This document shows positions 23,656 through 37,813 of a stretch of DNA of 64,000 bases, piece after piece. The translations under genes and the position numbers were made by a program. The stretch's first letter is position 1; each line of letters starts with the position of its first letter. The stretch lies in assembly GCF_023821985.2 (NCBI RefSeq), contig NZ_CP098805.1:620001-684000 (forward strand), read 5' to 3'. Origin of the DNA: Dyadobacter chenhuakuii. GTDB lineage: Bacteria; Bacteroidota; Bacteroidia; Cytophagales; Spirosomataceae. A model generated the notes under the pieces. That model made no database searches. It had not been told where the DNA came from and worked only from the letters and a program-made list of their open reading frames with translations.

Positions 23656-23675
23656 AACATTTAAGAAGCAGTGAG

Positions 23676-23713
23676 TGAGCGTGTTCCGACAAGGGGCACG
23701 CTCATTTTTCTTT
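23676..23713 (+). terminator. Terminator after the response regulator gene
   Basis: TGAGCGTG and CACGCTCA form a perfect 8-bp stem, followed by TTTTTCTTT. Confidence 0.85.
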
Positions 23714-23893: not shown

Positions 23894-25537
23894 ATGAAAA
23901 GACGAGATTTTATGCAAATGACAGGAATGGGCGCAGGAGCTTTAATGCTTTCGTCCGTGCCAGTCGTGGGAAATCCTGTGAGCGCCGCGCATCTGCTCGA
24001 ACCCTGGATTGATGTCGCTGCCAAGAAAAAATTTGCAGAAATCGCTCTCAATGCGGCCAAAAGCAAAGGCGCAACTTATACCGACGTCCGGATCGGGCGC
24101 TACTTACAGCAATATTTATTTACACGTGAAAAACAGGTTCAGAATATCGTGAATACGGAATCCTACGGCGTTGGGATCCGGGTAATAGCGAGCGGAACCT
24201 GGGGTTTTTCGGCCACCAGCGATGTAACGGCCGAGGGCATTGCCAAGTGCGCTGCAACGGCTGTTGAGATTGCGAAAGCAAATTCCAAATTTCAAAAAGA
24301 ACCGGTCGTGTTGGCTGAGCAGAAAGGAGTTGGCGACAAAACGTGGAAGACGCCGATCAAGAAGAATGCATTTGAAATTCCCATTCAGGAAAAGATTGAC
24401 CTGCTCATGAATGTGAATGGTGAGGCCATGAAAAACGGTGCGGGCTTCGTCACCTCCAATATGTTTTTTGTGAATGAACAGAAATATTTTGCTTCGTCCG
24501 ACGGCTCATTTATTGACCAGGACGTGCACCGCATATGGCCTACATTTACGGTAACAGTCACCGATAAAGCTGCCGGTAAATTCAAAACCCGCGATGCCAT
24601 CAGCTCGCCCATGGGCATGGGCTATGAATATCTGGATGGCTTAGCTTCGGAAAAAATCGCCGGCCCGAATGGTCTGGTCGGTTACCGGAACTCTTACGAC
24701 ATGGTGGAAGATGCGATCAATGCAGCGAAGCAGGCTAAGGAAAAAATGACTGCAAAATCGGTGCTTCCCGGCAAGTATGACCTGGTCCTGGATCCCAACC
24801 ATCTTGGCCTAACCATTCACGAATCCGTTGGGCACCCCACTGAGCTGGATCGTGTGCTGGGTTATGAGGCCAATTATGCAGGGACAAGTTTTGCAACATT
24901 GGATAAATGGGAGTCTAAAAACTTCGCCTATGGCAGCAAACTCGTAAACATTGTGGCGGACAAAACGCAGCCGAATACGCTTGGGGCTGTCGGTTATGAC
25001 GATGAGGGCGTGCCGTGCAAGGAGTGGGATATTATCAAAGATGGCGTTTTGGTGAATTACCAGGCCATTCGCGATCAGGTGAAGATCATTGGTGAAAAAG
25101 AATCGCACGGCTGCTGCTATGCAGATAACTGGAATTCCGTTCAATTTCAACGGATGCCCAACATCTCGTTGAAGCCGGGCACTGAGAAACGGAGCGTAAT
25201 GGACATGATCAAAGGCGTGGAAAAAGGCATTTATATCATTGGCCGGGGTTCATATTCCATTGATCAGCAGCGTTATAACTTCCAGTTTGGCGGTCAGGTG
25301 TTTTACGAAATCAAGAACGGGGCAATCACAGGCATGCTGGACGACGTTGCTTACCAGTCCAATACACAAGAGTTCTGGAATTCCTGCACGCAGCTTTGCG
25401 ATAAGGACGATTACCGCACATTCGGGTCGTTTTTCGATGGAAAAGGGCAACCTGCACAAGTGAGCGCAGTGTCACACGGAAGTTCAACGTCCCGTTTTGA
25501 CGGGGTGAATGTGATCAATACAGGACGGAAGATATAA
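23894..25537 (+). CDS. TldD-family metalloprotease with Tat signal (copy 1)
   Basis: A 547-residue TldD/PmbA-family protein. The N-terminus KRRDFMQMTGMGAGALML has a twin-arginine motif and hydrophobic core, so Tat export is likely. The zinc motif HESVGH lies at residues 309-314. The C-terminal region around FWNSCTQLCDKDDY and GKGQPAQ corresponds to the segment of E. coli TldD that supplies the third zinc ligand, a cysteine. TldD acts with TldE to degrade unfolded peptides, and in E. coli matures microcin B17. Here the gene is followed by a tldE partner and both are duplicated downstream. A HGCCYADNW segment is conserved in both copies. Tat export is unusual, since E. coli TldD is cytosolic. 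Confidence 0.9.
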   Translation: MKRRDFMQMTGMGAGALMLSSVPVVGNPVSAAHLLEPWIDVAAKKKFAEIALNAAKSKGATYTDVRIGRYLQQYLFTREKQVQNIVNTESYGVGIRVIASGTWGFSATSDVTAEGIAKCAATAVEIAKANSKFQKEPVVLAEQKGVGDKTWKTPIKKNAFEIPIQEKIDLLMNVNGEAMKNGAGFVTSNMFFVNEQKYFASSDGSFIDQDVHRIWPTFTVTVTDKAAGKFKTRDAISSPMGMGYEYLDGLASEKIAGPNGLVGYRNSYDMVEDAINAAKQAKEKMTAKSVLPGKYDLVLDPNHLGLTIHESVGHPTELDRVLGYEANYAGTSFATLDKWESKNFAYGSKLVNIVADKTQPNTLGAVGYDDEGVPCKEWDIIKDGVLVNYQAIRDQVKIIGEKESHGCCYADNWNSVQFQRMPNISLKPGTEKRSVMDMIKGVEKGIYIIGRGSYSIDQQRYNFQFGGQVFYEIKNGAITGMLDDVAYQSNTQEFWNSCTQLCDKDDYRTFGSFFDGKGQPAQVSAVSHGSSTSRFDGVNVINTGRKI

Positions 25538-25549
25538 GGATTGAATGAC

Positions 25550-25665
25550 TGAATGAGTGAATGAGTGAATGATTTGCTAATGCATACCCTTGTTGGGGCG
25601 ACATGTATAGCTTCAATATCAATCATCTACTGTAACATTCAATCATTCACTCATTCACTCATTCA
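25550..25665. repeat. Perfect 25-bp inverted repeat with TGAATGAG units
   Basis: The arms at 25550-25574 and 25641-25665 are exact reverse complements and consist of the unit TGAATGAG repeated three times (last unit TGAATGAT). A 66-base loop separates them. It fills most of the 142-base gap between the first tldD and tldE genes, whereas the second pair is separated by only 6 bases. It could form a large hairpin in mRNA or be a MITE-like insertion; no terminal target duplication or transposase was seen. Confidence 0.85.
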
Positions 25666-25679
25666 AAATTGAAATCAAC

Positions 25680-26996
25680 ATGGCTATTTTATCCAGAGAC
25701 GAAGCGAAGAAAATAATTGATAAAGTATTGGCATTTTCCAAAGCCGATGAAATAAGCGTAGGCCTTTTTGGCAACCGGACAGGCAACATTCGCTACGCAC
25801 GCAATTCCGTATCCACAAGCGGAGAAACGACTGATCTTTCCTTGTCCGTAACGTCTGTTTTTGGCAAGAAATCAGGCACGTCAACCATTAATGAGTTTGA
25901 TGATGCTTCTCTGGAAAAGACAGTAAGACGGGCCGAAGAAATAGCCAAACTCGCACCCGACAACCCGGAATATGTTCCTATGCTCGGGCCCCAGCAATAT
26001 CTTGAAACCAATTCTTTTGCAGAAAGCACGGCAGCAATCAATCCGGATTATCGCGCCAAAGCAGCTTTCGATAGCATTGATCCTTGCATTAAAAAGAATC
26101 TGACCGCGGCTGGTTATCTGGAAGATGCGGCGGGATTTAATGCAATGGGCAACAATAAGGGGCTTTTTGGATATAACAGATCTACCTCCATTGATTTTTC
26201 TATCACTGTTAGAACGGCCGATGGCAAAGGCTCCGGCTATGCTGCGCGGGATTACAATGATGCCTCTAAGCTCAGCACCGCTTCGGCAACAGAAGTTGCG
26301 ATGCAAAAGGCGATGGCTTCTGCAACGGCAAAAGCATTGGAACCGGGAAAATACACCGTAATCCTGGAACCGACTGCGGGCGTTGATCTTTTGGATAACA
26401 TGATGCGCAGCATGGATGCACGTAATGCGGATGAAGGCAGAAGTTTTTTGGGTAAAAAAGGAGGTGGAACGCGGCTCGGTGAAAAGCTTTTCGATGAACG
26501 CGTGAACATTTATTCAGATCCTCAAAATCAGGAAATCCCCGGATCGCCATTCAGTGGCGATGGCAGGCCACAGGAGAAAGTGATATGGATAGAGAATGGT
26601 GTGGTTAAAAATATGTCTTACTCGCGCTTTTGGGCACAAAAACAAGGTGTTAAGGCCATTGCTCCTCCATCCGGATTTATTTTTCAGGGTGGAAACGAAT
26701 CGTTGGCCGATCTTATCAAAGGAACTGAAAAGGGCATTCTGGTAACCCGGCTTTGGTATATCCGCGCGGTGGACCCGCAGACATTGCTTTACACGGGTCT
26801 GACGCGGGACGGCACATTCTACATTGAAAACGGGCAGATCAAATATCCGGTTAAGAATTTCCGGTTTAATGAAAGTCCGGTTATCATGCTCAATAATATA
26901 GAGGCGATTGGCAAGCCCGTTCGTGCGGGCGGCAACCTGGTACCGCCGCTAAAAATCCGCGATTTCACATTTACGAGTCTCTCGGACGCAGTTTAG
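25680..26996 (+). CDS. TldE/PmbA-family partner protein (copy 1)
   Basis: A 438-residue protein of the TldE/PmbA branch, which lacks the zinc motif and forms a heterodimer with TldD. Recognisable segments are NIRYARNSVSTSGET (residues 38-52), EPGKYTVILEPTAGVDLLDN, DEGRSFLGKKGG, and a C-terminal LWYIRAVDPQTLLYTGLTRD. No signal peptide is present, in contrast to TldD copy 1, so if the pair works outside the cytoplasm TldE would have to be co-exported with TldD. It is well separated from its tldD by the inverted repeat at 25550-25665. Confidence 0.88.
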   Translation: MAILSRDEAKKIIDKVLAFSKADEISVGLFGNRTGNIRYARNSVSTSGETTDLSLSVTSVFGKKSGTSTINEFDDASLEKTVRRAEEIAKLAPDNPEYVPMLGPQQYLETNSFAESTAAINPDYRAKAAFDSIDPCIKKNLTAAGYLEDAAGFNAMGNNKGLFGYNRSTSIDFSITVRTADGKGSGYAARDYNDASKLSTASATEVAMQKAMASATAKALEPGKYTVILEPTAGVDLLDNMMRSMDARNADEGRSFLGKKGGGTRLGEKLFDERVNIYSDPQNQEIPGSPFSGDGRPQEKVIWIENGVVKNMSYSRFWAQKQGVKAIAPPSGFIFQGGNESLADLIKGTEKGILVTRLWYIRAVDPQTLLYTGLTRDGTFYIENGQIKYPVKNFRFNESPVIMLNNIEAIGKPVRAGGNLVPPLKIRDFTFTSLSDAV

Positions 26997-27130
26997 CGCA
27001 CATGACCACTCATGTATTTTTAATTTCCTTACATAAAAAGTGCATTGAATCTGTTGCAGCTTTTCGCTAGCTTATGCATTACGCCTTTTATTCCAATGAC
27101 CCAATTCGTCACTATTAGCAACCATATACT

Positions 27131-28768
27131 TTGAAACGCAGAGACTTTATACAATTGGCTGGACTCGGAACGGGAGCGTTCATGATGCCTGCTTTTGCAA
27201 TGGGCAGAAATGTCTCCCCCGAAGCATTTCTTGAAAAAAGTGTGGATGAAGCCGTCAAAAAACGACTGGCTGATGCCGCGCTGAATGCTGCAAAATCCAA
27301 AGGCGCTTCCTATGCCGACGTCAGGATCGGACGTTATCTCAATCAGTTTGTGGTAACCCGTGAAGACAAAGTGCAGAACATTGTAAACACGGAATCCTAC
27401 GGCGTGGGCGTGCGCGTAGTTGCAAACGGATGCTGGGGGTTTGCCGCTGTTGTTGATGTAAATAATGAGGCGCAAATGGCAAAAGCCGCCGAAGATGCCG
27501 TAGCAATTGCGAAAGCGAATGCAAAGCTAATGAAAGAGCCCGTGCAACTGGCCCCGCAAAAAGGCTTTGGTGAAGTAAGCTGGAAAGCGCCGATTAAGAA
27601 AAATGCTTTCGAAGTGCCTATTAAGGAGAAGGTTGACCTGCTGCTTTCTGTAAATGATGCAGCGATGAAGAATGGCGCTAATTATGTGAATTCAGTGCTT
27701 TTTTTAGTTAATGAACAAAAATATTTTGCTTCCACCGATGGTTCGTATATTGACCAGGACGTTCACCGGATCTGGCCGATCTTCAATGTTACGGCCATTG
27801 ATCCGAAAAGTGGAAAATTTGAAACCAGGAACGCATTAAGCGCACCAATGGGCATGGGTTACGATTATCTGCAAGCCAACCCGTCCGACAAAATTACCGG
27901 CGTGACCACGCGCTACAACAAAGGTTACGACATGCTGGAAGATGCTACTGCGGCAGCCAAACAAGCCAAAGAAAAGTTGACGGCAAAATCAGTGGAGGCA
28001 GGCAAATATGACCTTATTCTGGATCCGTCGCACCTCTGGCTGACCATTCACGAATCCGTCGGCCACCCGCTCGAACTGGACCGTGTGCTCGGTTATGAGG
28101 CCAATTTTGCAGGGACTTCTTTTGCAACATTGGATAAATGGAAATCCAAAGACTTCCAGTATGGCAGCAAACAAGTGAACCTGATCGCCGACAAATTGCA
28201 GGAAGGATCTTTGGGAGCTGTTGGCTGGGATGATGAAGGTGTTAATACAAAGAAATGGGACCTGGTGAAGGATGGTGTCTTAGTCAATTATCAGGCAATC
28301 CGCGACCAGGCGCACATTATCGGTGAGAAAGAGTCGCATGGCTGCTGCTATGCCGATAGCTGGTCTTCCGTACAATTCCAGAGAATGCCGAATGTTTCGC
28401 TGGCTGCTGGCAAGACGCCGTTATCCGTGGACGACATGATCAAGGATGTCAAAAAAGGCATTTACATTATTGGTGACGGCTCGTTCTCGATTGATCAGCA
28501 GCGATATAATTTCCAGTTTGGCGGGCAGTTGTTTTATGAAATCAAGGACGGTAAGATTGTCGGCATGCTGAAAGATGTGGCTTATCAATCCAATACACAG
28601 GAGTTCTGGAATTCTTGCGTGCAGGTTTGTGATGAAAAGGACTATCGTCTAGGCGGCTCATTCTTCGACGGCAAAGGCCAGCCCTCGCAATCCAGCGCTG
28701 TATCGCACGGAAGTTCGACAACGCGTTTTAACGGGGTTAATGTGATCAATACAGCCAGAAAAATATAA
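27131..28768 (+). CDS. TldD-family metalloprotease with Tat signal (copy 2)
   Basis: A 545-residue second TldD closely similar to copy 1 along its whole length. The likely start is TTG at 27131, since it gives the twin-arginine leader KRRDFIQLAGLGTGAFMMP. The zinc motif HESVGH lies at residues 307-312, with the shared HGCCYAD and the C-terminal FWNSCVQVCDEKDY and GKGQPSQ segments. The next gene, tldE copy 2, starts 6 bases after the stop. The retained motifs suggest both copies are active; differences such as HPLELDR against HPTELDR next to the zinc site are small. The duplication includes both pair members and must be old because DNA identity is broken by many changes. Confidence 0.9.
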   Translation: MKRRDFIQLAGLGTGAFMMPAFAMGRNVSPEAFLEKSVDEAVKKRLADAALNAAKSKGASYADVRIGRYLNQFVVTREDKVQNIVNTESYGVGVRVVANGCWGFAAVVDVNNEAQMAKAAEDAVAIAKANAKLMKEPVQLAPQKGFGEVSWKAPIKKNAFEVPIKEKVDLLLSVNDAAMKNGANYVNSVLFLVNEQKYFASTDGSYIDQDVHRIWPIFNVTAIDPKSGKFETRNALSAPMGMGYDYLQANPSDKITGVTTRYNKGYDMLEDATAAAKQAKEKLTAKSVEAGKYDLILDPSHLWLTIHESVGHPLELDRVLGYEANFAGTSFATLDKWKSKDFQYGSKQVNLIADKLQEGSLGAVGWDDEGVNTKKWDLVKDGVLVNYQAIRDQAHIIGEKESHGCCYADSWSSVQFQRMPNVSLAAGKTPLSVDDMIKDVKKGIYIIGDGSFSIDQQRYNFQFGGQLFYEIKDGKIVGMLKDVAYQSNTQEFWNSCVQVCDEKDYRLGGSFFDGKGQPSQSSAVSHGSSTTRFNGVNVINTARKI

Positions 28769-28774
28769 CCAGCC

Positions 28775-30112
28775 ATGTCTATCATACTATCTGAATCGGA
28801 AGCAAAAGCATTAATGCAGAAAGTGCTGGCTTACTCCAAAGCGGACGAATGCGAAATTAATCTGCTGGGAGAGGAGCGGGGCAACCTGCGTTACGCAAGG
28901 AACGAAGTGTCCACAAGCGGATCGCTGGTCAACCAAAATTTATCCGTACAATCGGCTTTTGGCAAAAAAGTGGGTGTCGCCACCATTGATGAGTTCAGCG
29001 ATGAGTCGCTAGAAAAAGTGGTAAGGAGGTCTGAGGAGCTTGCTCAGCTGGCGCCCGAAAATCCTGAATATGTGAGCATTCTGGGTCCGCAGACTTATCT
29101 CAAATCATCCGGTTTCTTCGAATCGACGGCTGGCATCAATGCTGATAAGCGCGCCGATGCCGTTGCGAAAAGCCTGGAACTATCGAGAGGGAAAAACCTG
29201 ACGGCAGCGGGCTTCCTGGACAACCAGAAAGGCTATTCCGCCATGATGAATTCCAAAGGGTTATTCGCTTATTACCCAAGCACAAGCGTCAATTTTTCCC
29301 TCACGGTTCGCACGCCGGATGGCACGGGCTCTGGCTACATTGCGCGGGGTTATAGTGATGTGAACAAGCTCGATACGGCTGCTGCAACGACCATAGCGAT
29401 CCAGAAAGCGATGGGTTCCATGAATGCGAAAGCATTGGAGCCGGGAAAATACACCGTCATTCTGGAACCAACGGCGGCGGCGGTTTTACTGGAAAATATA
29501 TATTTCAATTTTGATGCAAGAAGCGCTGACGAAGGCCGCTCCTTTTTAAGCAAGCCAGGCGGGAAGACCAAGTTGGGCGAGAAAATCGTCGACGAGCGCG
29601 TGAACATTTACTCCGATCCCACGCATCCGGATCTGCCGGCATCGCCCTGGGCAGGAGATGGGCAGCCTTTGAACAAAATGGCCTGGATAGAAAAAGGGGT
29701 TGTCAAAAACATGGTCTACTCGCGCTATTGGGCACAAAAAAACAATGTAAAGGCCGTTCCTTCTCCCAGCAATGTGATTATGGACGGCGGAACCGCCACC
29801 ATGGAAGAACTGATCAAATCCACGAAACAGGGGATTTTGGTTACCAAACTCTGGTATATCCGGGAAGTGGACCCGCAAACATTGTTACTGACCGGCCTTA
29901 CGCGGGACGGCACATTTTACATTGAAAACGGCGTTATTAAGCATCCGGTCAAAAATTTCCGTTTTAACGAAAGTCCTGTCATTATGCTGAATAACCTCGA
30001 AACATTGGGTAGATCAGAAAGGGTCGTGAGTACGGAATCGGACAGGAATTATATGGTTCCGCCAATGAAAATCAGGGAGTTTACTTTTTCTTCACTTTCC
30101 GACGCGGTTTGA
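28775..30112 (+). CDS. TldE/PmbA-family partner protein (copy 2)
   Basis: A 445-residue second TldE, matching copy 1 in segments such as NLRYARNEVSTSGS, EPGKYTVILEPTAAAVLLEN, DEGRSFLSKPGG and LWYIREVDPQTLLLTGLTRD. It has no zinc motif and no signal peptide. Its ending MKIREFTFSSLSDAV mirrors KIRDFTFTSLSDAV of copy 1. Its stop overlaps the TTG start of the DUF4159 gene by 4 bases, tying the protease pair to the downstream MoxR-type cluster by translational coupling. Confidence 0.88.
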   Translation: MSIILSESEAKALMQKVLAYSKADECEINLLGEERGNLRYARNEVSTSGSLVNQNLSVQSAFGKKVGVATIDEFSDESLEKVVRRSEELAQLAPENPEYVSILGPQTYLKSSGFFESTAGINADKRADAVAKSLELSRGKNLTAAGFLDNQKGYSAMMNSKGLFAYYPSTSVNFSLTVRTPDGTGSGYIARGYSDVNKLDTAAATTIAIQKAMGSMNAKALEPGKYTVILEPTAAAVLLENIYFNFDARSADEGRSFLSKPGGKTKLGEKIVDERVNIYSDPTHPDLPASPWAGDGQPLNKMAWIEKGVVKNMVYSRYWAQKNNVKAVPSPSNVIMDGGTATMEELIKSTKQGILVTKLWYIREVDPQTLLLTGLTRDGTFYIENGVIKHPVKNFRFNESPVIMLNNLETLGRSERVVSTESDRNYMVPPMKIREFTFSSLSDAV

Positions 30113-30726
30113 AGCCTTTTTTCTTTACTCGAATTCAATACACGTCCGGAAACTGGGACACCGACCAGCGAATGCCGTCCAATCTGCTGCATTCGCTGGT
30201 TGAATACACCACAATTCCGATTGATGAGAAGGAAAAAGTAGTACAATTGAACAGCAATGAAATTTTCAAAAGTCCTTTTTGCTACCTGAGCGGGCACAAG
30301 CTGGTTGAGTTTTCCACGCAGGAAAGGGAACATTTTAGACGATATGTGCAAAACGGCGGCTTCGTTTTTGTGGACGATTGCAATCATGATATCGATGGAC
30401 TTTTCGCCAAATCGTTTGAGCAGGAAATGGAACGGACGTTTGGTCCCAAAGCCTTGCAAAAGATCCCCAATAGCCACCCTATTTATTCCAGTTTTTTCAA
30501 ATTTGAGGAAGGGCCGCCAACGACTTCATTCGAGTTGAATGGCTGGGGCGATGATCTTGTGCATGATTATCTCAAAGCGATTACGATCAATGGACGGATC
30601 GGTGTGTTATATAGCAATAAAGATTACGGCTGCGAATGGGATTATGATTTTCGTAACAAGCGTTTTCTGGCAGTTGACAATACACGTTTTGGTGTGAATA
30701 TTGTAGTCTATGCGCTAAATGCATAG
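30109..30726 (+). CDS. DUF4159 protein (glutamine amidotransferase-like fold)
   Basis: A 205-residue protein that starts with TTG overlapping the tldE2 stop. It begins FFFTRIQYTSGNWDTD, the typical DUF4159 start, then LLHSLVEYTT. A central GGFVFVDDCNHDIDGLFAKSF reads like the nucleophile-elbow region of a GATase-like sheet without the catalytic cysteine position being certain. It ends with RFGVNIVVYALNA, also typical. DUF4159 domains occur in membrane proteins linked to BatA and MoxR genes; here the domain stands alone, is soluble and lies between tldE2 and moxR. The role is unknown. Confidence 0.85.
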   Translation: MKPFFFTRIQYTSGNWDTDQRMPSNLLHSLVEYTTIPIDEKEKVVQLNSNEIFKSPFCYLSGHKLVEFSTQEREHFRRYVQNGGFVFVDDCNHDIDGLFAKSFEQEMERTFGPKALQKIPNSHPIYSSFFKFEEGPPTTSFELNGWGDDLVHDYLKAITINGRIGVLYSNKDYGCEWDYDFRNKRFLAVDNTRFGVNIVVYALNA

Positions 30727-30803
30727 CCAGTTTAGCATGATTAACACGATCATTACACTTGTCGACTTTTAACTTTTTAATAATTAAAACTGCATTCTGA
30801 GGT

Positions 30804-31790
30804 TTGGAAAAATTGGAGTTGAGCCATTACAAAGAGCTGGTTGCCAGGCTGCCGCTTCTGAAAAAGGAAATTGCCAAAGTGATTGTTGGTCAGCAGGAAG
30901 CGATTGATGAAATATTGATTTCCCTGCTTGCCGGAGGGCATTGCCTGTTGGAAGGCGTTCCGGGTTTGGCAAAGACATTAATGGTAAAAACCATGTCCGA
31001 AGCGCTGCATATGAGCTTCAAAAGGATCCAGTTTACGCCCGATCTGATGCCCGGAGACATTGTAGGGACCGAAATTCTGGAAGAAGATCATGAAACCGGC
31101 AAGAAATTCTTCAAATTCAACCGCGGCCCTGTGTTTGCGAATGTAGTGCTGGCCGATGAAATTAACCGGACGCCGCCTAAAACGCAGGCCGCATTGCTCG
31201 AAGCCATGCAGGAAAAAACTGTAACCTACGGCGGAACCAACTACGAGCTTCCGAACCCATTCCTGATCATTGCAACGCAAAACCCGATCGAGCAGGCAGG
31301 CACTTATCCATTACCTGAGGCGCAGCTTGATCGGTTTTTGTTGTATATCAAATTAAATTATCCCAATGAGCAGGAGGAGCTCGACGTGCTGAAAGGCACA
31401 ACCGGATCGCTGAAGCCTGGCATTAACCGTGTCCTGGCCGACACGGAAATCGTTGCCTTACAACAGCTGACCCGGCAAGTTCACATTAGCGACGAGCTGA
31501 TTACGCGGATCAATAAGCTCGTTAGGGCAACAAGGCCCGAGGGAAGCCCATCGGATTTTGTGAGGGAATGGTGCGATTGGGGAGCGGGGCCCAGGGCAGG
31601 GCAGGCGCTCGTACTCTGCGCAAAAGCCCGCGCGGTCCTGCACGAACGCTTCGCGGTGATTCCGGAAGATATTCAGACATTGGCTTACCCGGTATTACGG
31701 CACCGGATCGCCATGAATTTTCGTGCGGAGGCAGAAGGCATAACCACCGATCAGGTGATCGATCAATTGCTGCCTGCTGTGAAGAACTGA
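30804..31790 (+). CDS. moxR: MoxR-family AAA+ ATPase
   Basis: A 328-residue AAA+ chaperone. The start is probably TTG at 30804 (EKLELSHYKEL). The Walker A motif is GVPGLAKT (near residues 52-59), Walker B VLADEINR, the MoxR loop RTPPKTQAALLEAMQEK, sensor 1 IATQNP, and the C-terminal lid with arginine finger region follows. MoxR proteins help assemble or activate partner complexes, usually through VWA proteins such as DUF58 and Bat members, which follow here. It is the head of the DUF58 and BatA-type gene run on the same strand, 77 bases after the DUF4159 gene. Confidence 0.95.
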   Translation: MEKLELSHYKELVARLPLLKKEIAKVIVGQQEAIDEILISLLAGGHCLLEGVPGLAKTLMVKTMSEALHMSFKRIQFTPDLMPGDIVGTEILEEDHETGKKFFKFNRGPVFANVVLADEINRTPPKTQAALLEAMQEKTVTYGGTNYELPNPFLIIATQNPIEQAGTYPLPEAQLDRFLLYIKLNYPNEQEELDVLKGTTGSLKPGINRVLADTEIVALQQLTRQVHISDELITRINKLVRATRPEGSPSDFVREWCDWGAGPRAGQALVLCAKARAVLHERFAVIPEDIQTLAYPVLRHRIAMNFRAEAEGITTDQVIDQLLPAVKN

Positions 31791-31854
31791 TGTTGGTCGG
31801 GTGACACAACTCAGTTTCGTTTTTCTAATTCCAGAGACATTTAACATTATTCAT

Positions 31855-32763
31855 ATGGCAGCGACCACCGGCCTGCTTGCTTCGCAGCTCATCAAGCTGA
31901 ATAATCTGCAACTGACCGGCAAGCTGGTGAGCGAGGAGCTGATGCTGGGAATCCATGCCAGCAAGCGGTCGGGGATAGGAGTGGAGTTTGAGCAATATCG
32001 ACATTATGAGCCCGGGGATGATCCCAAACGGATTGATTGGAAGCTGTTTGCACGCACGGATAAGCATTTGATCCGCGAATCCTCAACGGAGAGCGATAAG
32101 CAGGTGCGGTTTGTACTGGACCTTTCCGGTTCCATGAATTATGTTGAAAATGGTGTGAGTCGGCTGCAGTATGGGCAGATTTTATTGGCCTCACTGGCGT
32201 ATCTCTGCTACATTCAGAATGATCAAATGTCGCTTTATACATTGAAAGACAGCTCGATCCACACCATTTCCGCGACTGGCGCATCGTCTTCCGGTAAGCA
32301 GGCTTTCCAGAAGATTTTGGTTGGTTTAGAGAAAACTATTGCGAGTGGAATGTGGGATAGGGAAGTCAAAACCGGTCAGAAAATCAAGTTTCCCGAGTTT
32401 CAATCGAAGAAAAAGGAGCAGCTGATTTTTGTAAGTGATTTTTTGCAAACACACGACGAATGGCTGGATCTGATCCGTTCCCTTGCGGGGCCTTATCGTG
32501 AAATCGTTGTATTTCAAATCCTTGGTGATCAGGAAATGGATTTTAACCTCGAAGGTTTCTATCGTTTTAAGGATTTGGAAACGGGTAAGGAGATAGAACT
32601 GGACGCAGGATCTGTTCGGGAAAAATTCCGTGAATCGGCTGATCGGTATTTACTTCAATTGAAGGAGGCTTTGCAGATCCCGCATGTGACCCTGGTGCGT
32701 GTGCGCATGAGCGACCCCATAGGAATGGTTTTGAAGGCGTATTTAACCAAACGGAAAGGATAA
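31855..32763 (+). CDS. DUF58 protein with VWA-like domain
   Basis: About 302 residues from the ATG at 31855; a GTG at 31801 would add 18 residues with no supporting feature. The DUF58 signature is clear: a YEPGDDPKRIDWKLFART segment and the following RESSTESD. The VWA-like core starts FVLDLSGSMNY with DxSxS metal residues. No transmembrane segment is visible in the first 100 residues, so it may be cytosolic or peripheral. DUF58 genes nearly always follow moxR, and the protein is a probable client or adaptor of the MoxR ATPase. The gap to moxR is 64 bases and its stop is next to the following ATG. Confidence 0.9.
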   Translation: MAATTGLLASQLIKLNNLQLTGKLVSEELMLGIHASKRSGIGVEFEQYRHYEPGDDPKRIDWKLFARTDKHLIRESSTESDKQVRFVLDLSGSMNYVENGVSRLQYGQILLASLAYLCYIQNDQMSLYTLKDSSIHTISATGASSSGKQAFQKILVGLEKTIASGMWDREVKTGQKIKFPEFQSKKKEQLIFVSDFLQTHDEWLDLIRSLAGPYREIVVFQILGDQEMDFNLEGFYRFKDLETGKEIELDAGSVREKFRESADRYLLQLKEALQIPHVTLVRVRMSDPIGMVLKAYLTKRKG

Positions 32764-33888
32764 ATGGGATTTCTGAATCCATATATGCTTTGGGGAATGC
32801 TAGCGGTTGCTTTACCGGTAATTATCCATTTCTGGTATCAAAAAAAAGGCAAACAGATTGCCTGGGCGGCTTCACAATGGCTTGTGGATAAGACTTCGTT
32901 AAGGCACCGAGGCATTAGAATAGACGAAATTCCCCTGCTGTTGATCCGTTGTTTACTAGTGATTTTACTTTCAATGCTGCTGAGTGGGCCTATCTTAAAC
33001 CAGTTCGGCAGGGATCAGGAAAAAGAGCAAGTGCATCTGGTCCAGGCTGACCCAAAGGTGACCAGTAACTTTCGTTTCGAGCTTGAAAATGCATTGCAAC
33101 GGAAAGAAAGGGTCGTCTTCATTAGCGCTGATTTGAAGCCACTGGCAGACCTAACGAACATTCCTGAGACAAAGGGCAGCTTATTCTTTTTACAGCAGAA
33201 CATTAATAGCATTGTGGGGGATAACACGCATTTGAACTTATATCTGCTTAATAATCAGGATATAAGCCGGTTACCAAAAATTGTGGTCCCTGGAACTTAC
33301 AAATTATATGCAGTTAAGGATTCAGCGCAGCAGGCGGAGAACCCTTTGATCGGGTTCGCTCAGAAAACGGGTCGCGATAACATTAATGTTTTGATTGACT
33401 ACGAAAATCAGGACGAAGCGGAGACGGTTCAGGCTGGCTTGGAAGCATTGAAAGATGTTTTTGAAATTCCTGTCAGCATTGATAGGGCAACCGGGTTAAA
33501 AAGCAAATACGATTGGATATTTACGGATAAGCCAATTACCCTGCGAAATGAGCAAACTTTGTATGTTATTCCCCAAAAAGGCAGTGATAATCAGGTGTTT
33601 GATAATGTCATTTCAGTAAGTGATTCATTGCGGTTGGCGACATCCGCAATGGTGCAGAACGGACAGTTGCCCGAGTGGCTAGGTGAAATGTTGATCACGC
33701 ATTATCAATTAGATAAAAATCTCAGGCCTTTAAGCCAAAGGCAGTTGGAATCAGCATTTGGCAGCGTGGAACCGCTGAAAGAACAGCATTCGGATGGTTT
33801 GTATCAATGGTTATTGTTATTGTTTGTGCTGGTAGTCATGCTGGAACGTTGGATTTCACTCAATCACAAAACGGCGCGCAATGCATGA
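32764..33888 (+). CDS. BatA-domain membrane protein
   Basis: A 374-residue protein with the BatA N-terminal module: FLNPYMLWGMLAVALPVIIHF (first membrane helix), a short basic stretch, IPLLLIRCLLVILLSMLL (second helix), and a C-terminal helix YQWLLLLFVLVVMLERW. Between them lies a periplasmic region of about 280 residues with no catalytic motif visible. The ATG at 32764 is the base after the DUF58 stop, and the stop overlaps the next gene by 8 bases. This places it in the MoxR-DUF58-BatA assembly typical of Bacteroidota. Confidence 0.85.
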   Translation: MGFLNPYMLWGMLAVALPVIIHFWYQKKGKQIAWAASQWLVDKTSLRHRGIRIDEIPLLLIRCLLVILLSMLLSGPILNQFGRDQEKEQVHLVQADPKVTSNFRFELENALQRKERVVFISADLKPLADLTNIPETKGSLFFLQQNINSIVGDNTHLNLYLLNNQDISRLPKIVVPGTYKLYAVKDSAQQAENPLIGFAQKTGRDNINVLIDYENQDEAETVQAGLEALKDVFEIPVSIDRATGLKSKYDWIFTDKPITLRNEQTLYVIPQKGSDNQVFDNVISVSDSLRLATSAMVQNGQLPEWLGEMLITHYQLDKNLRPLSQRQLESAFGSVEPLKEQHSDGLYQWLLLLFVLVVMLERWISLNHKTARNA

Positions 33889-36112
33889 GTTAAGGAAACT
33901 GATCGTTTTGGTGACGAGCCAGCTGTATGTGAGCGCGATTTTCCGTTGCTTGCTGCTGGCCGGTTCTGCCTACCTTTTCGTTTCGGTTTTTTCAGGGCCG
34001 TTGCATATGGTCAGCATATTTGCTGCGTTTGCGGCTTTGGGAGCCGGGATTGTTTTCACAGGGATTTATAAAAACAACAGGGAAATAGCAATCTCGCTGA
34101 TCCACAACCATGTCGGCGAAACGGAATACAGCCTCCACCTCCTGGAAAAAACCGAATTGAATGTTGCAGAGCAATTGCAGTTAGAGCGCATCGCGAACCG
34201 CAATTTTGACTTTCCTTTCACCAAACTTTATAACGGCCTCATCGCCTATTTGGCCCTGTTTCTGACTGCGGTGGCATTTTATATCATTTATCCATCCATT
34301 TCATTTAATGAAAATACAACAGGTCAAGATCACATAAGGAAACAGGGGCCACAAAAAGCGAATGTTACCCTTGCACCCAGATACGAATCTGCCACCATCA
34401 ACATTGCGCCACCCGCCTATACGAAATTGCCTAAGCAGCAGTTGAGTGACCTGAATGTGAGTGTTGTAACCGGCTCGGCGTTAACATGGAATGTGAAATT
34501 CACCCATTCAGAAAACCTTGTCCTTCGTCTCGCTAACCGCCAGGGTGAGGAGGTCTCGTTTCGAAGGGAGAATAGCTTTTTTACACATTCAGACAAGATT
34601 ACAGGATCCGGGTTGTATTCCATTAAGGGTTATTGGAAAGATTCGCTTATATACCAATCTGATTTTTACCGGCTCGAAGCCTTGCCCGATCTTGCGCCAA
34701 AAATAGAGCCTGCGTCAAAAGAATTGTATAAATATCATTTCCTGAAAGACACTAAGACGATCAAGGTTACGGCAAAAATTTCGGACGATTTCCGTGTTAG
34801 TCAGGCATTTATAGTAGCCACGCTTGCACGCGGCTCAGGGGAAAATGTGAAGTTCCGCGAGGTGAAATTCCCATTATCCCCGACAGATTTTAAAGAGGCT
34901 GATTTACAAAAGGTAATCGACCTCAATGAGCTAAACTTTACTCCGGGCGACGAACTTTACTACTATTGGGCAGCAGTTGACAACAAGTCACCTCAGCCAA
35001 ATTTCAGCAAATCAGACACTTACTTCTTGGTTTACAAAGACACTTCCCAAGTCGAGGAGGCAGAACTGGCGACAATGGCCGTGAACATTATGCCTGAATA
35101 TTTCAGAAGCCAGCGACAAATCATCATTGACACCGAAAAATTAATTGCCAAACGTAAAAAGATCCCTGCGAAGGAATTTGCCTCAGTTTCCAATGAGATT
35201 GGTTTTGATCAAAAAGTGCTGAGGCTGCGTTATGGGCAGTATTTGGGAGAGGAATTTGAAACGAGCATTGGCGGCGGCGGTGCACCGCCGGAAGCCGATG
35301 GAGGCAATATGCTGGATGCTTTTACGCACAAGTCGGATGGTGAGGGAGAAGCTTCGCACAGCCGCGCTGCGGACAGCCGCGCAGCAGAGCCGGAGCATCA
35401 GCACGACCATGACGGGCACGCGCATGAAAAAGCGCATGGGGATGCAGGAGAGAAGGATCCGCTGGCGGCATTGATGGAGCAATATGTTCATGCGCATGAC
35501 GATGCGGAGACGAACACATTTTATGAACAATCGACGCGGAGTTTGCTGAAAATGGCCTTGGAACAAATGTGGCAGTCAGAGTTGCATTTACGGTTGTATG
35601 AGCCGGAAAAAGCGCTCCCGTTTGAGCATAAGGCCCTTGAATTCTTAAAAACTGCTCAGCAAAAAGCCCGGACGTATGTCAAAAAAAGCGGTTATGATCC
35701 GCCGCCGATCAAGGAAAAAGAGAAGCGTTTGAGCGGTGAATTGAAGCAGATCAGCACAGATTTAAGTGTTGAAAAGTTCTATAAAAATAAAACGATTGCT
35801 CAGCTGGCAGCAGAAGTTTCAGGATTTTTGGGCTACGAAAAGCTTGACAACGAACAACGGGCCAGATTGCGACTGGCTGGAACTGCATTCTCAGACCGGC
35901 TCATGAACAGCGGACCGTTCAATGGCGGGTTAGGGAATTGGGAAATGATTGGCGCGCTTCAGAAACTTGTTAATGGGAGAAAGTTGTCGTCCAATGAAAA
36001 ACAGCGCCTGAGAAACGGTTTATATAAATACACCAATCATTCTGAGCAAAGCCGAAGCCATTATTCCAGCGAGAAAAGGTTGGAAGAAGCATTTTGGAGA
36101 AAGCTGCATTAA
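33881..36112 (+). CDS. Large membrane protein, DUF4175-like, with histidine-rich stretch
   Basis: A 743-residue protein. Three or four helices lie within the first 150 residues (including YLALFLTAVAFYIIY near 115-130). A long extracytoplasmic part follows, with DUF4175-like beta domains (TLAPRYESATINIAPPAYT, PDLAPKIEP) and a helical C-terminus. Around residues 490-545 there is a low-complexity region with repeated His, Asp, Glu and Ala (DHDGHAHEKAHGDAG), which could bind zinc or nickel. The neighbouring TldD proteases need zinc, so a metal-buffering role is possible but is only inference. It overlaps the BatA-type gene by 8 bases. Confidence 0.75.
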   Translation: MHELRKLIVLVTSQLYVSAIFRCLLLAGSAYLFVSVFSGPLHMVSIFAAFAALGAGIVFTGIYKNNREIAISLIHNHVGETEYSLHLLEKTELNVAEQLQLERIANRNFDFPFTKLYNGLIAYLALFLTAVAFYIIYPSISFNENTTGQDHIRKQGPQKANVTLAPRYESATINIAPPAYTKLPKQQLSDLNVSVVTGSALTWNVKFTHSENLVLRLANRQGEEVSFRRENSFFTHSDKITGSGLYSIKGYWKDSLIYQSDFYRLEALPDLAPKIEPASKELYKYHFLKDTKTIKVTAKISDDFRVSQAFIVATLARGSGENVKFREVKFPLSPTDFKEADLQKVIDLNELNFTPGDELYYYWAAVDNKSPQPNFSKSDTYFLVYKDTSQVEEAELATMAVNIMPEYFRSQRQIIIDTEKLIAKRKKIPAKEFASVSNEIGFDQKVLRLRYGQYLGEEFETSIGGGGAPPEADGGNMLDAFTHKSDGEGEASHSRAADSRAAEPEHQHDHDGHAHEKAHGDAGEKDPLAALMEQYVHAHDDAETNTFYEQSTRSLLKMALEQMWQSELHLRLYEPEKALPFEHKALEFLKTAQQKARTYVKKSGYDPPPIKEKEKRLSGELKQISTDLSVEKFYKNKTIAQLAAEVSGFLGYEKLDNEQRARLRLAGTAFSDRLMNSGPFNGGLGNWEMIGALQKLVNGRKLSSNEKQRLRNGLYKYTNHSEQSRSHYSSEKRLEEAFWRKLH

Positions 36113-36145
36113 AATAAAAACAGCTGGTTGGCTCAACAAATACGT

Positions 36146-37813
36146 ATGATTCAATTCGATTTTAACTGGTCTGAGCCCCTTAACCTCATTATTCCGGCAC
36201 TTGCGCTGTTACTGTTGCCTTTGCAACTGTGGCTGATCTTACGTGCGAAAAAGGATAATCAATTGACCCCGCGGCACTGGCTCAGACTGAGCCTGAACGT
36301 GTTGTTATGGTTGGCTGTTGTGGCTTTTATCATTCGGCCATATTTGCTCAAAAAGGCAGAAACGGTGACGGGTTTTCTAATTGGTAATGATATTCCGTCA
36401 TCGTATGCTAATGCATTAGCAGACAGCATTAACAGCCTTAAAAAAACGGTTTCCAGCGACATTAAAAGTGCAAGATTTGATACACTGATTCTGGCAGGCC
36501 AGGACTTTCAGCCCGAAATATTTAACACAATCCTGCAAGCCGCGCCGAAACGGATTCAGTGGATTCCTTATTTGGCGGAAGACAAATGGCAGCAGTTACA
36601 CTGGAAAGGCGTTGTTCGAAAAGGGGAGATGCAGGTTGTGCAGGGTAATGTGCTTTCATCCAAACCGCAGGTTTTGAAATTAAAATACGGTGATAATGTG
36701 CTCGATAGCATTGCATTACAAAAAGGGTTTAATCAGTTCCGCCTGCAATTTCCGGTGTTTACGGAAGAAAGGACGCTTATCGAGCTTGCTATGGACGGCG
36801 AAATTCGAGATACAATCCGTTTCTATGCGCGGCCATCACAGAAATTCACATTTCAGTTTTTACTGGACAGCCCTGATTTTGAAAGCCGGGCGCTGGCAAA
36901 CTGGCTCGGCAAAGCCGGGCACGCCGTGATCTATGCAGCAACATTGTCCAAAAACATCCGGAGCCAGGAGACGATTAACAGGGCAAAGGATCCTGACGTT
37001 GTCGTAACTGACGCTGGAAATGTTAACAATAGATTGGTTAAGAAGGTCTTAGCAGCTGGTAAAAGTGTCTTGTTTATTAATGTTACCAAGCCAGAGGATG
37101 AGATCAAGGCTATAAACGCTTCCTTGGGAACCCAGCTGAAGGTGAATAGGATATCGGTGGAAGAATCCGTTTCGGTAAGTCCCGGGCTTACGGCGCTGCC
37201 TTTCCGTTTCGTACCGGGCAATCGTTATTTTACTTCCGGGACACTGCCTATTGCAGTTGAGAGGATTCGCGGAAGGGTAGGCGTGAGCTTGTTAAATGAA
37301 ACTTTTCCACTGCAACTGGCAGGCGATAGTGCTGCTTATCAAAAGGTTTGGGATGCAATTCTGGCACCCGTTGTGCCCGCAACCACCAATAACATTCAAG
37401 TGCAGGCACCTTTGTTCGAGGGCGTTGATACCGAGGTGACATTGAATGGATTTTCTAATTTATCAAATTTCATAAAGATCGGTTCCGACTCAGTCTTTTT
37501 AAGCACTTCACCTATAAATGAGGGATCAGCCAAGGCCTTTTTTAAGCCCACAGAAATTGGCTGGATAAGCTCGCGCGACTCTCTGAAAATGGAAATGTTT
37601 GTTGAAAATCAGGCTACTGCCGGAGATCTTTATAACACAGCCAGGCTAACGAACTTCATAAAAATCTACAACAGCCTGCAAAAAAAGTTGCGGAATGAAA
37701 CCGGCATTTCATCGCAACATGCAAACGAAGTCAAGCAAAAACTTCCGGATTGGATGTGGTTTGCATTGATTATTGTTTGCTTTCTTGCCGTGTGGGTTGA
37801 ACGGAAATTATAG
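36146..37813 (+). CDS. Second BatA-like membrane protein
   Basis: About 555 residues from the preferred ATG at 36146; a TTG at 36128 would add six. N-terminal helices IIPALALLLLPLQLWLIL and LSLNVLLWLAVVAFII flank a basic loop, like BatA modules. The large middle part looks like two Rossmann-type glutamine-amidotransferase-like subdomains (FTFQFLLDSPDFESRALANW, ANWLGKAGHAVIYAA, VVVTDAG, GKSVLFINVTKP), as in other BatA/DUF4159-linked proteins. A final helix WMWFALIIVCFLAVWV lies at the C-terminus. It is the last gene of the cluster, and its stop faces the MutS-like gene 25 bases away. Confidence 0.75.
   Translation: MIQFDFNWSEPLNLIIPALALLLLPLQLWLILRAKKDNQLTPRHWLRLSLNVLLWLAVVAFIIRPYLLKKAETVTGFLIGNDIPSSYANALADSINSLKKTVSSDIKSARFDTLILAGQDFQPEIFNTILQAAPKRIQWIPYLAEDKWQQLHWKGVVRKGEMQVVQGNVLSSKPQVLKLKYGDNVLDSIALQKGFNQFRLQFPVFTEERTLIELAMDGEIRDTIRFYARPSQKFTFQFLLDSPDFESRALANWLGKAGHAVIYAATLSKNIRSQETINRAKDPDVVVTDAGNVNNRLVKKVLAAGKSVLFINVTKPEDEIKAINASLGTQLKVNRISVEESVSVSPGLTALPFRFVPGNRYFTSGTLPIAVERIRGRVGVSLLNETFPLQLAGDSAAYQKVWDAILAPVVPATTNNIQVQAPLFEGVDTEVTLNGFSNLSNFIKIGSDSVFLSTSPINEGSAKAFFKPTEIGWISSRDSLKMEMFVENQATAGDLYNTARLTNFIKIYNSLQKKLRNETGISSQHANEVKQKLPDWMWFALIIVCFLAVWVERKL

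Follow-up and report, generated by a model that had tools for sequence, protein, structure and literature searches.

Background

The peptidase TldD/TldE (PmbA; PDB 5nj5) of E. coli is regarded as a cytosolic enzyme, and the metal ligands of its TldD are the two histidines of HExxxH and Cys454 (PMC5810440; this paper and the two below are cited from excerpts). The same excerpts note an Asp at the position of the third ligand in Gemmatimonas and call that site more thermolysin-like. NorQ/NorD is a pair of a MoxR and a VWA protein that inserts metal and is encoded alongside the enzyme it serves (PMC13036017). In Stenotrophomonas maltophilia, a not-yet-characterized operon of nine consecutive locus tags (NIPOLPBK_01784-01792) contains two TldD, MoxR, a putative protease, a membrane protein and three hypothetical proteins, and part of its genes show lowered expression in the biofilms of all seven isolates examined (PMC7688217). 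We report a cluster of ten genes in a stretch of 64,000 nucleotides from Dyadobacter chenhuakuii (NZ_CP098805.1, positions 620,001 to 684,000; the whole stretch is called the window), with the order tldD-tldE-tldD-tldE-DUF4159-moxR-DUF58-batA-M743-M561, where M743 and M561 are two predicted membrane proteins. The best explanation of the whole is that these genes encode one envelope peptidase system, a proposal for which we consider the case evenly balanced.

The cluster shares with the E. coli pair the three-domain proteins, the restriction of HExxxH to TldD and the two-gene arrangement; it differs in a leader of the twin-arginine translocation (Tat) type on TldD, in Asp instead of Cys at the third-ligand position, in the tandem copies and in the linked MoxR module (the six genes from DUF4159 to M561). 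The NCBIfam models for E. coli and archaeal TldD match the window proteins far below their cut-offs. Its sequence places the leader-bearing, Asp-type TldD inside the TldD family, as a definite variant.

Results

The association of the peptidase with the module was assessed in 392 genomes of the phylum, our own included; the phylum, Bacteroidota, was taken from the names of relatives. In each genome the best three first-look candidates for TldD and the best two for M743 were scored, with thresholds of E<=1e-60 for the TldD type and for full-length M743. TldD of the cluster type was found in 41 genomes and full-length M743 in 32, all of them among the 41; not one of the 351 genomes without cluster-type TldD has full-length M743 (Fisher p 3.5e-39, uncorrected for kinship). 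Only weak, partial M743 matches occur in nine further genomes, none with cluster-type TldD; a tenth weak match is the second one in genome G358. The genera g2, g4 and g16 each have one genome with both proteins and one with neither. In these samples full-length M743 was not found without cluster-type TldD, and the latter sometimes occurs without M743; the pattern is that expected of a dedicated accessory.

TldD and M743 lie within 20 kilobases (kb) of each other on one contig in 24 of the 32 genomes (coordinates read by eye). The other eight keep both genes, which were not seen linked there (G346, G079, G125, G133, G137, G248, G252 and G272); fragmentation prevents a judgement for G252 and G248, and the contamination of G272 is rated at 13%. 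Such genomes retain sub-blocks, for example DUF58-BatA-M743-M561 apart from tldDE. A division of DUF4159 into types 1 and 2, which is our own and is based on score and length, was applied to 148 genomes: type 2 is present in 13 of the 14 with a clear TldD (G004 lacks it), and G030 and G093 have odd extra copies without TldD. Genomes G104 and G123, with weak PF01523 matches, were dropped; their regions contain no match to the window proteins.

The gene neighbourhood was compared in 77 named loci, the remainder of the best 80 matches listed, which are biased toward close relatives; the sample of 392 genomes and that of 281 genomes described below are less so. The closest named relative among the matches listed is Dyadobacter psychrophilus (TldD1 97% identical). 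Within the fetched stretches, tldE is present at 76 of 77 loci, at least one module gene at 57, moxR together with DUF58 at 53 and all six module genes at 28. At fourteen of the 20 loci where no module gene was seen, the available sequence falls short of 10 kb on one side or both; at the other six (L141, L155, L158, L160, L163 and L164), about 10 kb on either side were covered and contain no module gene. One of these six, L163, belongs to Pontibacter lucknowensis, a species with two tldD loci, and module genes are present at the other (L122). Most loci follow the order [D-E]n-4159-MoxR-58-BatA-M743-M561, and the others have a divergent DUF4159 and tldDE downstream of M561; one module per locus goes with one to three TldD paralogues. 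The clustering of these genes is far beyond chance, and the neighbourhood is not unique to this genome.

A search of the 77 loci for additional gene families within the cluster or next to it found none that is widespread (open reading frames of at least 100 residues, families in at least 5 loci). The commonest additional families (5 to 21 loci) consist, by our reading, of frames antisense to known genes; the others occur in at most 6 loci, several in Pontibacter only, one of these Pontibacter families lying inside the cluster (L110 15364-15921).

Both window TldD proteins begin with MKRRDF (TldD2 from a TTG codon) and contain HESVGH, and neither window TldE has a signal, in agreement with what had been proposed from the sequence alone. 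The leader survey covered 163 TldD rows (161 distinct ones from the loci and two from the window). A Tat-type leader upstream of the core carries two arginines (RR) in 144 rows and arginine-lysine (RK) in 15; the motif is absent from two rows (L096 begins at the edge of its contig and the L147 frame inside the core), and the N-terminus is missing in the remaining two. Of 62 chosen rows, 61 have a hydrophobic stretch after the motif; as a crude yardstick for chance, 14 of 511 other mechanically derived open reading frames pass the test for motif and hydrophobicity. TldD1 scores above the cut-off of the NCBIfam Tat model TIGR01409 (19.9 against 16.7 bits); the model does not list TldD2 at E<=0.001, and at E<=1 it lists 0 of 50 TldE. 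No leader was seen in 135 TldE rows: twelve regular-expression matches are read as lying inside a core helix or upstream of the start, and the start of L167 is unclear. TatC is encoded in 147 of 148 genomes, our own included, and therefore carries no information, nearly all genomes having it. None of the three outcomes that would have counted against the original prediction (a neighbourhood confined to this genome, rejection of both leaders by Tat predictors, homologous TldD without leaders) was found. Export of TldD is likely, and it seems somewhat favoured that folded TldE would hitch-hike with it through Tat.

HExxxH is present in 24 of 24 TldD and in none of 18 TldE; its form in TldD is HE..GH in 156 of 159 and HE..AH in three. 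At the third-ligand position, where other TldD read CGK, the cluster-type proteins have DGK: Asp was found in 26 of 26 rows of the first alignment and in 157 of 159 of the larger one. The exceptions, L167 and L168, have Cys and no module in their fetched stretches. The change from Cys to Asp across leader-bearing TldD, as read from these alignments, is a new observation of this analysis.

The full gene set is also found in Microbulbifer flavimaris (L157), which we take to be a gammaproteobacterium. A sample of 281 genomes of its class, this genome included, was examined with the best five first-look candidates scored in each, and 18 genomes pass the TldD threshold. Three of them exceed 880 bits and have the leader, Asp and a linked module; their module loci comprise nine genes, two tldD and a single tldE among them. 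The TldD of the other 15 score about 206-250 bits, and all 15 keep Cys; they are leaderless by our reading of the sequences and in 13 of 15 cases by the script, which flagged RR or RK in L202 and L209, motifs that we read as upstream of the likely start. No module gene was found at these 15 loci in the fetched stretches of 3.6 to 18 kb (G445/L203 has only 3.6 kb). In two of the three module-bearing genomes there is a further TldD/E pair at a separate place, so that in those two the leader-bearing set is an addition.

Five of 44 listed places in plasmid records were examined in sequence. Leaderless-looking TldD on records from Mycobacterium, Nonomuraea and Pseudomonas keep Cys. Xanthomonas plasmid records contain an N-terminal TldD fragment with a Tat-type leader (5 records; L085 3992-4528), and another Xanthomonas plasmid record has a relative of M743 (1 record; H44).

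In the window BatA, M743 and M561, the distribution of positive charges would, by our reading, place the large domains outside. The hydropathy helix pattern is as in the window in 45 of 65 BatA, 34 of 46 M561 and 41 of 62 M743; the rest differ by about one helix. Walker A is kept in 67 of 72 MoxR. A pattern resembling the metal ion-dependent adhesion site (MIDAS), [LIVF]xDxSxS[ML], occurs in 56 of 70 DUF58 proteins, and a stricter pattern in 15 of 67; the window MoxR and DUF58 proteins have the Walker A and the MIDAS-like motif, respectively. The His-rich stretch of M743 ends in HxHD; HxH is present in 46 of the 47 sequences with an anchor, and 14 of 61 rows had no anchor. Neither window M743 nor M561 matches Pfam at E<=0.001, and their homologues fall in no confident Pfam family. 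The label "DUF4175-like" given earlier to M743 is weak: two of eight homologues match (best E 3.6e-5) and the window protein does not, and any DUF4175 likeness is at most distant.

A cluster without TldD (L218) in genome G030, which has no cluster-type TldD, contains DUF58, DUF4159, a BatA-like gene and an M743-like frame of 1122 residues with partial similarity, in a row. This cluster makes it probable that the module is one specialised form within a broader class. At L217 5608-9838, type 1 DUF4159 is directly followed by a protein of 1148 residues partly similar to M743, an arrangement that suggests an older paralogous system. Type 1 DUF4159, the commoner of the two types, lies approximately 2-4 kb from tatC in 16 of 148 genomes, with coordinates read by eye (G003, G008, G013, G018, G022, G030, G050, G058, G073, G081, G085, G104, G112, G123, G135 and G147); a separate link between DUF4159 and Tat is possible. 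The type 1 DUF4159 of our own genome (L219 7638-9055) seems, by eye, to have a Sec-like signal, unlike the DUF4159 of the cluster, and comes after a gene that resembles, also by eye, a ribosomal RNA methyltransferase.

The features of the locus are collected in Table 1. The run of ten open reading frames on one strand (window positions 23894-37813) is confirmed by the open reading frame listing and by Pfam: each of the four TldD/TldE proteins has three PmbA_TldD domains above the cut-offs, and the DUF4159, MoxR (AAA_3, 212 bits), DUF58 and BatA proteins match their families as well. A genome-wide search gives four matches to the first TldD/E domain, all inside the cluster.

Table 1. Features of the tldDE-MoxR cluster (window coordinates)
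Feature	Position	Strand	Remarks
tldD1	23894..25537	+	Leader MKRRDFMQMTGMGAGALML; HESVGH at residues 309-314 (24818-24835); third-ligand Asp515
DGK motif of tldD1	25436-25444	+	Residues 515-517; invariant in the 26-row alignment
tldE1	25680..26996	+	Partner without HExxxH and without leader
tldD2	27131..28768	+	TTG start; leader MKRRDFIQLAGLGTGAFMM; HESVGH; DGK
tldE2	28775..30112	+	No leader
DUF4159 gene	30109..30726	+	Lower-scoring type 2 class, co-occurring with TldDE
moxR	30804..31790	+	MoxR AAA+ ATPase; the genome has three strong AAA_3 matches, this one included
DUF58 gene	31801..32763	+	MIDAS-like DLSGSM; VWA-type MoxR partner
batA	32764..33888	+	BatA-like membrane protein; two N-terminal helices, large middle domain, one C-terminal helix
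M743 gene	33881..36112	+	Three N-terminal helices, then large C-terminal domain; His-rich stretch
Conserved HxHD of M743	35489-35497	+	H537, H539
M561 gene	36128..37813	+	Two N-terminal helices, large middle domain, one C-terminal helix; no known family
Terminator-like hairpin	23673..23707	+	Between a small upstream gene and tldD1; consensus match only

The original prediction that overlapping or touching ends tie the run together stands for three junctions: the stop of tldE2 (30112) overlaps the start of DUF4159 (30109) by 4 nucleotides, DUF58 (end 32763) abuts batA (start 32764), and the end of batA (33888) overlaps the start of M743 (33881). The spacing is uneven, however, with 142 nucleotides upstream and 134 downstream of tldE1. 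The first of these gaps contains, at 25541-25666, a 31-nucleotide inverted repeat made of the octamer GAATGAGT. Its 22-nucleotide core has 40 matches with at most one mismatch in the genome and the reversed control none, so the hairpin in this gap is a genome-wide repeat element.

The pairs had been called duplicated, which is right with the qualification that the duplication is old. Midpoint-rooted FastTree trees assign TldD1 and TldD2 to different clades, each with several genera (17 tips, support 0.96, and 19 tips, 0.99); TldE2 likewise has its own clade (15 tips, 0.95), and TldE1 is less well supported (16 tips, 0.84). A recent local duplication was rejected on this basis.

Discussion

We believe that TldDE and the MoxR module very probably form a functional unit. 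Beyond this, we tentatively propose from the sequence data an ATP-coupled envelope peptidase, in which a Tat-exported, Asp-altered TldD/TldE would depend on a membrane-spanning MoxR-DUF58-DUF4159-BatA-M743-M561 machine, inherited as a unit in Bacteroidota and in some members of Microbulbifer's class. TldD would fold and pair with TldE in the cytoplasm, and Tat would export the folded heterodimer on the leader of TldD. In the oxidising periplasm, replacement of the oxidisable Cys ligand by Asp would give a thermolysin-like site. BatA, M743 and M561 would form an inner-membrane complex whose large outward domains offer a docking site for the peptidase; MoxR and DUF58, the latter through its MIDAS, would use ATP to remodel this complex, by analogy with NorQD, and the remodelling would leave TldDE metal-loaded or activated, with the His-rich HxHD of M743 as a candidate metal relay. 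One module would serve one to three TldD paralogues. The exported TldDE would perform in the envelope the task that TldD/E has in the E. coli cytosol, the trimming of unfolded peptides. Docking with metal loading or activation by the ATP-driven membrane module appears to be the most coherent reading; that the module metal-loads or activates TldDE, taken by itself, is a suggestion by analogy that falls short of an even chance, and the hints toward metal loading are the HxH motif of M743 and the known metal insertion by NorQD.

Several observations weigh against this proposal. Nine of the 41 genomes with cluster-type TldD have no full-length M743, and the surroundings of seven of these nine, which were fetched, contain no module gene; the peptidase can thus do without the module in some cases. 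Leader, Asp and module mostly follow a single branch of the family, and their correlation may reflect few independent events. The membrane topology rests on hydropathy and charge. MoxR and DUF58 have no membrane helices or leaders, so that any effect of these cytosolic proteins on a periplasmic enzyme must pass via the membrane proteins. At E<=1, TIGR01409 lists only 19 of 62 TldD, in rows preselected for the motif. The RK variant, a weaker Tat motif than RR, accounts for 15 of 163 leaders. Finally, a leader is combined with Cys in the Bacteroidota TldD L167 and L168, and a TldD on a Parabacteroides plasmid combines Cys with a Tat-like lipoprotein leader (L087 3758-7842; it adjoins TldE and a gene annotated as an anaerobic sulfatase-maturation protein). 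Asp is therefore not required for export, and the idea that it strictly follows export is weakened.

Other explanations share parts of the same evidence. The module may instead extract or unfold envelope proteins or peptides and feed them to a docked, exported TldDE, with no role in maturation. We regard this as unlikely, yet as the most serious of the alternatives: three membrane proteins with large predicted outer domains seem more than metal loading needs, a single module is accompanied by one to three TldD at a locus, and an unfolding partner would be useful to an enzyme that admits only unfolded peptides via a narrow channel (excerpts of PMC5810440). Against it, MoxR is predicted to be cytosolic, and full-length M743 is missing from the nine TldD genomes mentioned above. 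To our knowledge, no MoxR unfolds substrates across a membrane. Alternatively, exported TldDE and the module could act in the same condition, such as envelope or oxidative stress, and never meet. The eight of 32 genomes where TldD and M743 were not seen linked, the module relatives that occur without TldD and the lowered expression of some genes of the similar Stenotrophomonas operon in biofilm (excerpts of PMC7688217) would fit; the absence of full-length M743 from all 351 genomes without cluster-type TldD and the joint presence or absence within genera are, however, stronger than co-regulation usually gives, and we find this explanation rather improbable.

The remaining two alternatives concern the peptidase itself. 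Its N-terminus could anchor or proofread TldD at the inner membrane face, TldDE staying cytosolic as in E. coli. The TldE proteins without visible leader and the RK variants agree with this; however, the motif is present in 159 of 163 rows, whereas no leader is apparent in the 15 TldD with Cys from Microbulbifer's class, and the change from Cys to Asp fits an oxidising compartment, so that we consider retention in the cytosol very unlikely. Least probable of all, and highly improbable, is that TldDE removes the leaders of secreted ribosomal peptides as in microcin B17, a known role of TldD/E (excerpts of PMC5810440): the 77 loci have no further widespread coding family by the survey described above, which could miss a short precursor.

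If the proposal of a module-dependent, exported TldDE is true, a peptidase known as cytosolic moves to the envelope, which suggests why its metal ligand changes, and a MoxR-type membrane module is assigned a partner enzyme. The module tracks one soluble enzyme closely, which makes it a tractable system for the function of MoxR/DUF58/Bat machines.

Comparison with known systems

The MoxR-DUF58-BatA core of the Bat aerotolerance operon is present in the cluster. In the Bat operon the partners are BatB to BatE; the next genes here, M743 and M561, have no Bat-type Pfam match. The operon RL3499-RL3502 of Rhizobium leguminosarum is reportedly a conserved MoxR-type operon without TldD that affects cell morphology and envelope integrity; both it and our cluster are conserved and MoxR-type, with a link to the envelope that for our cluster is predicted, and the module of the cluster goes with leader-bearing TldDE. 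The TldD-free cluster of G030 shares DUF58, DUF4159, BatA-like and M743-like genes and differs in its M743-like frame of 1122 residues, which is similar in part only, and in having no TldD. NorQ/NorD agrees with the cluster in a MoxR ATPase, a MIDAS-bearing partner and an adjacent candidate client enzyme; the cluster differs in having DUF58 for NorD, three membrane proteins with DUF4159, and a putative peptidase as the client.

A full-text literature search found the DUF4159 family name in no paper, no paper joining TldD with a Tat signal and none joining modulator of DNA gyrase with MoxR; TldD and twin-arginine are co-mentioned only in unrelated contexts. The original prediction knew of no described system of this composition. 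Within the literature searched this remains correct for a system described as such, and the gene set is nonetheless glimpsed in the uncharacterised Stenotrophomonas operon with two TldD and MoxR (excerpts of PMC7688217). Compared by description only, that operon resembles the module loci of Microbulbifer's class in its nine genes and two tldD, and it is probably the same system.

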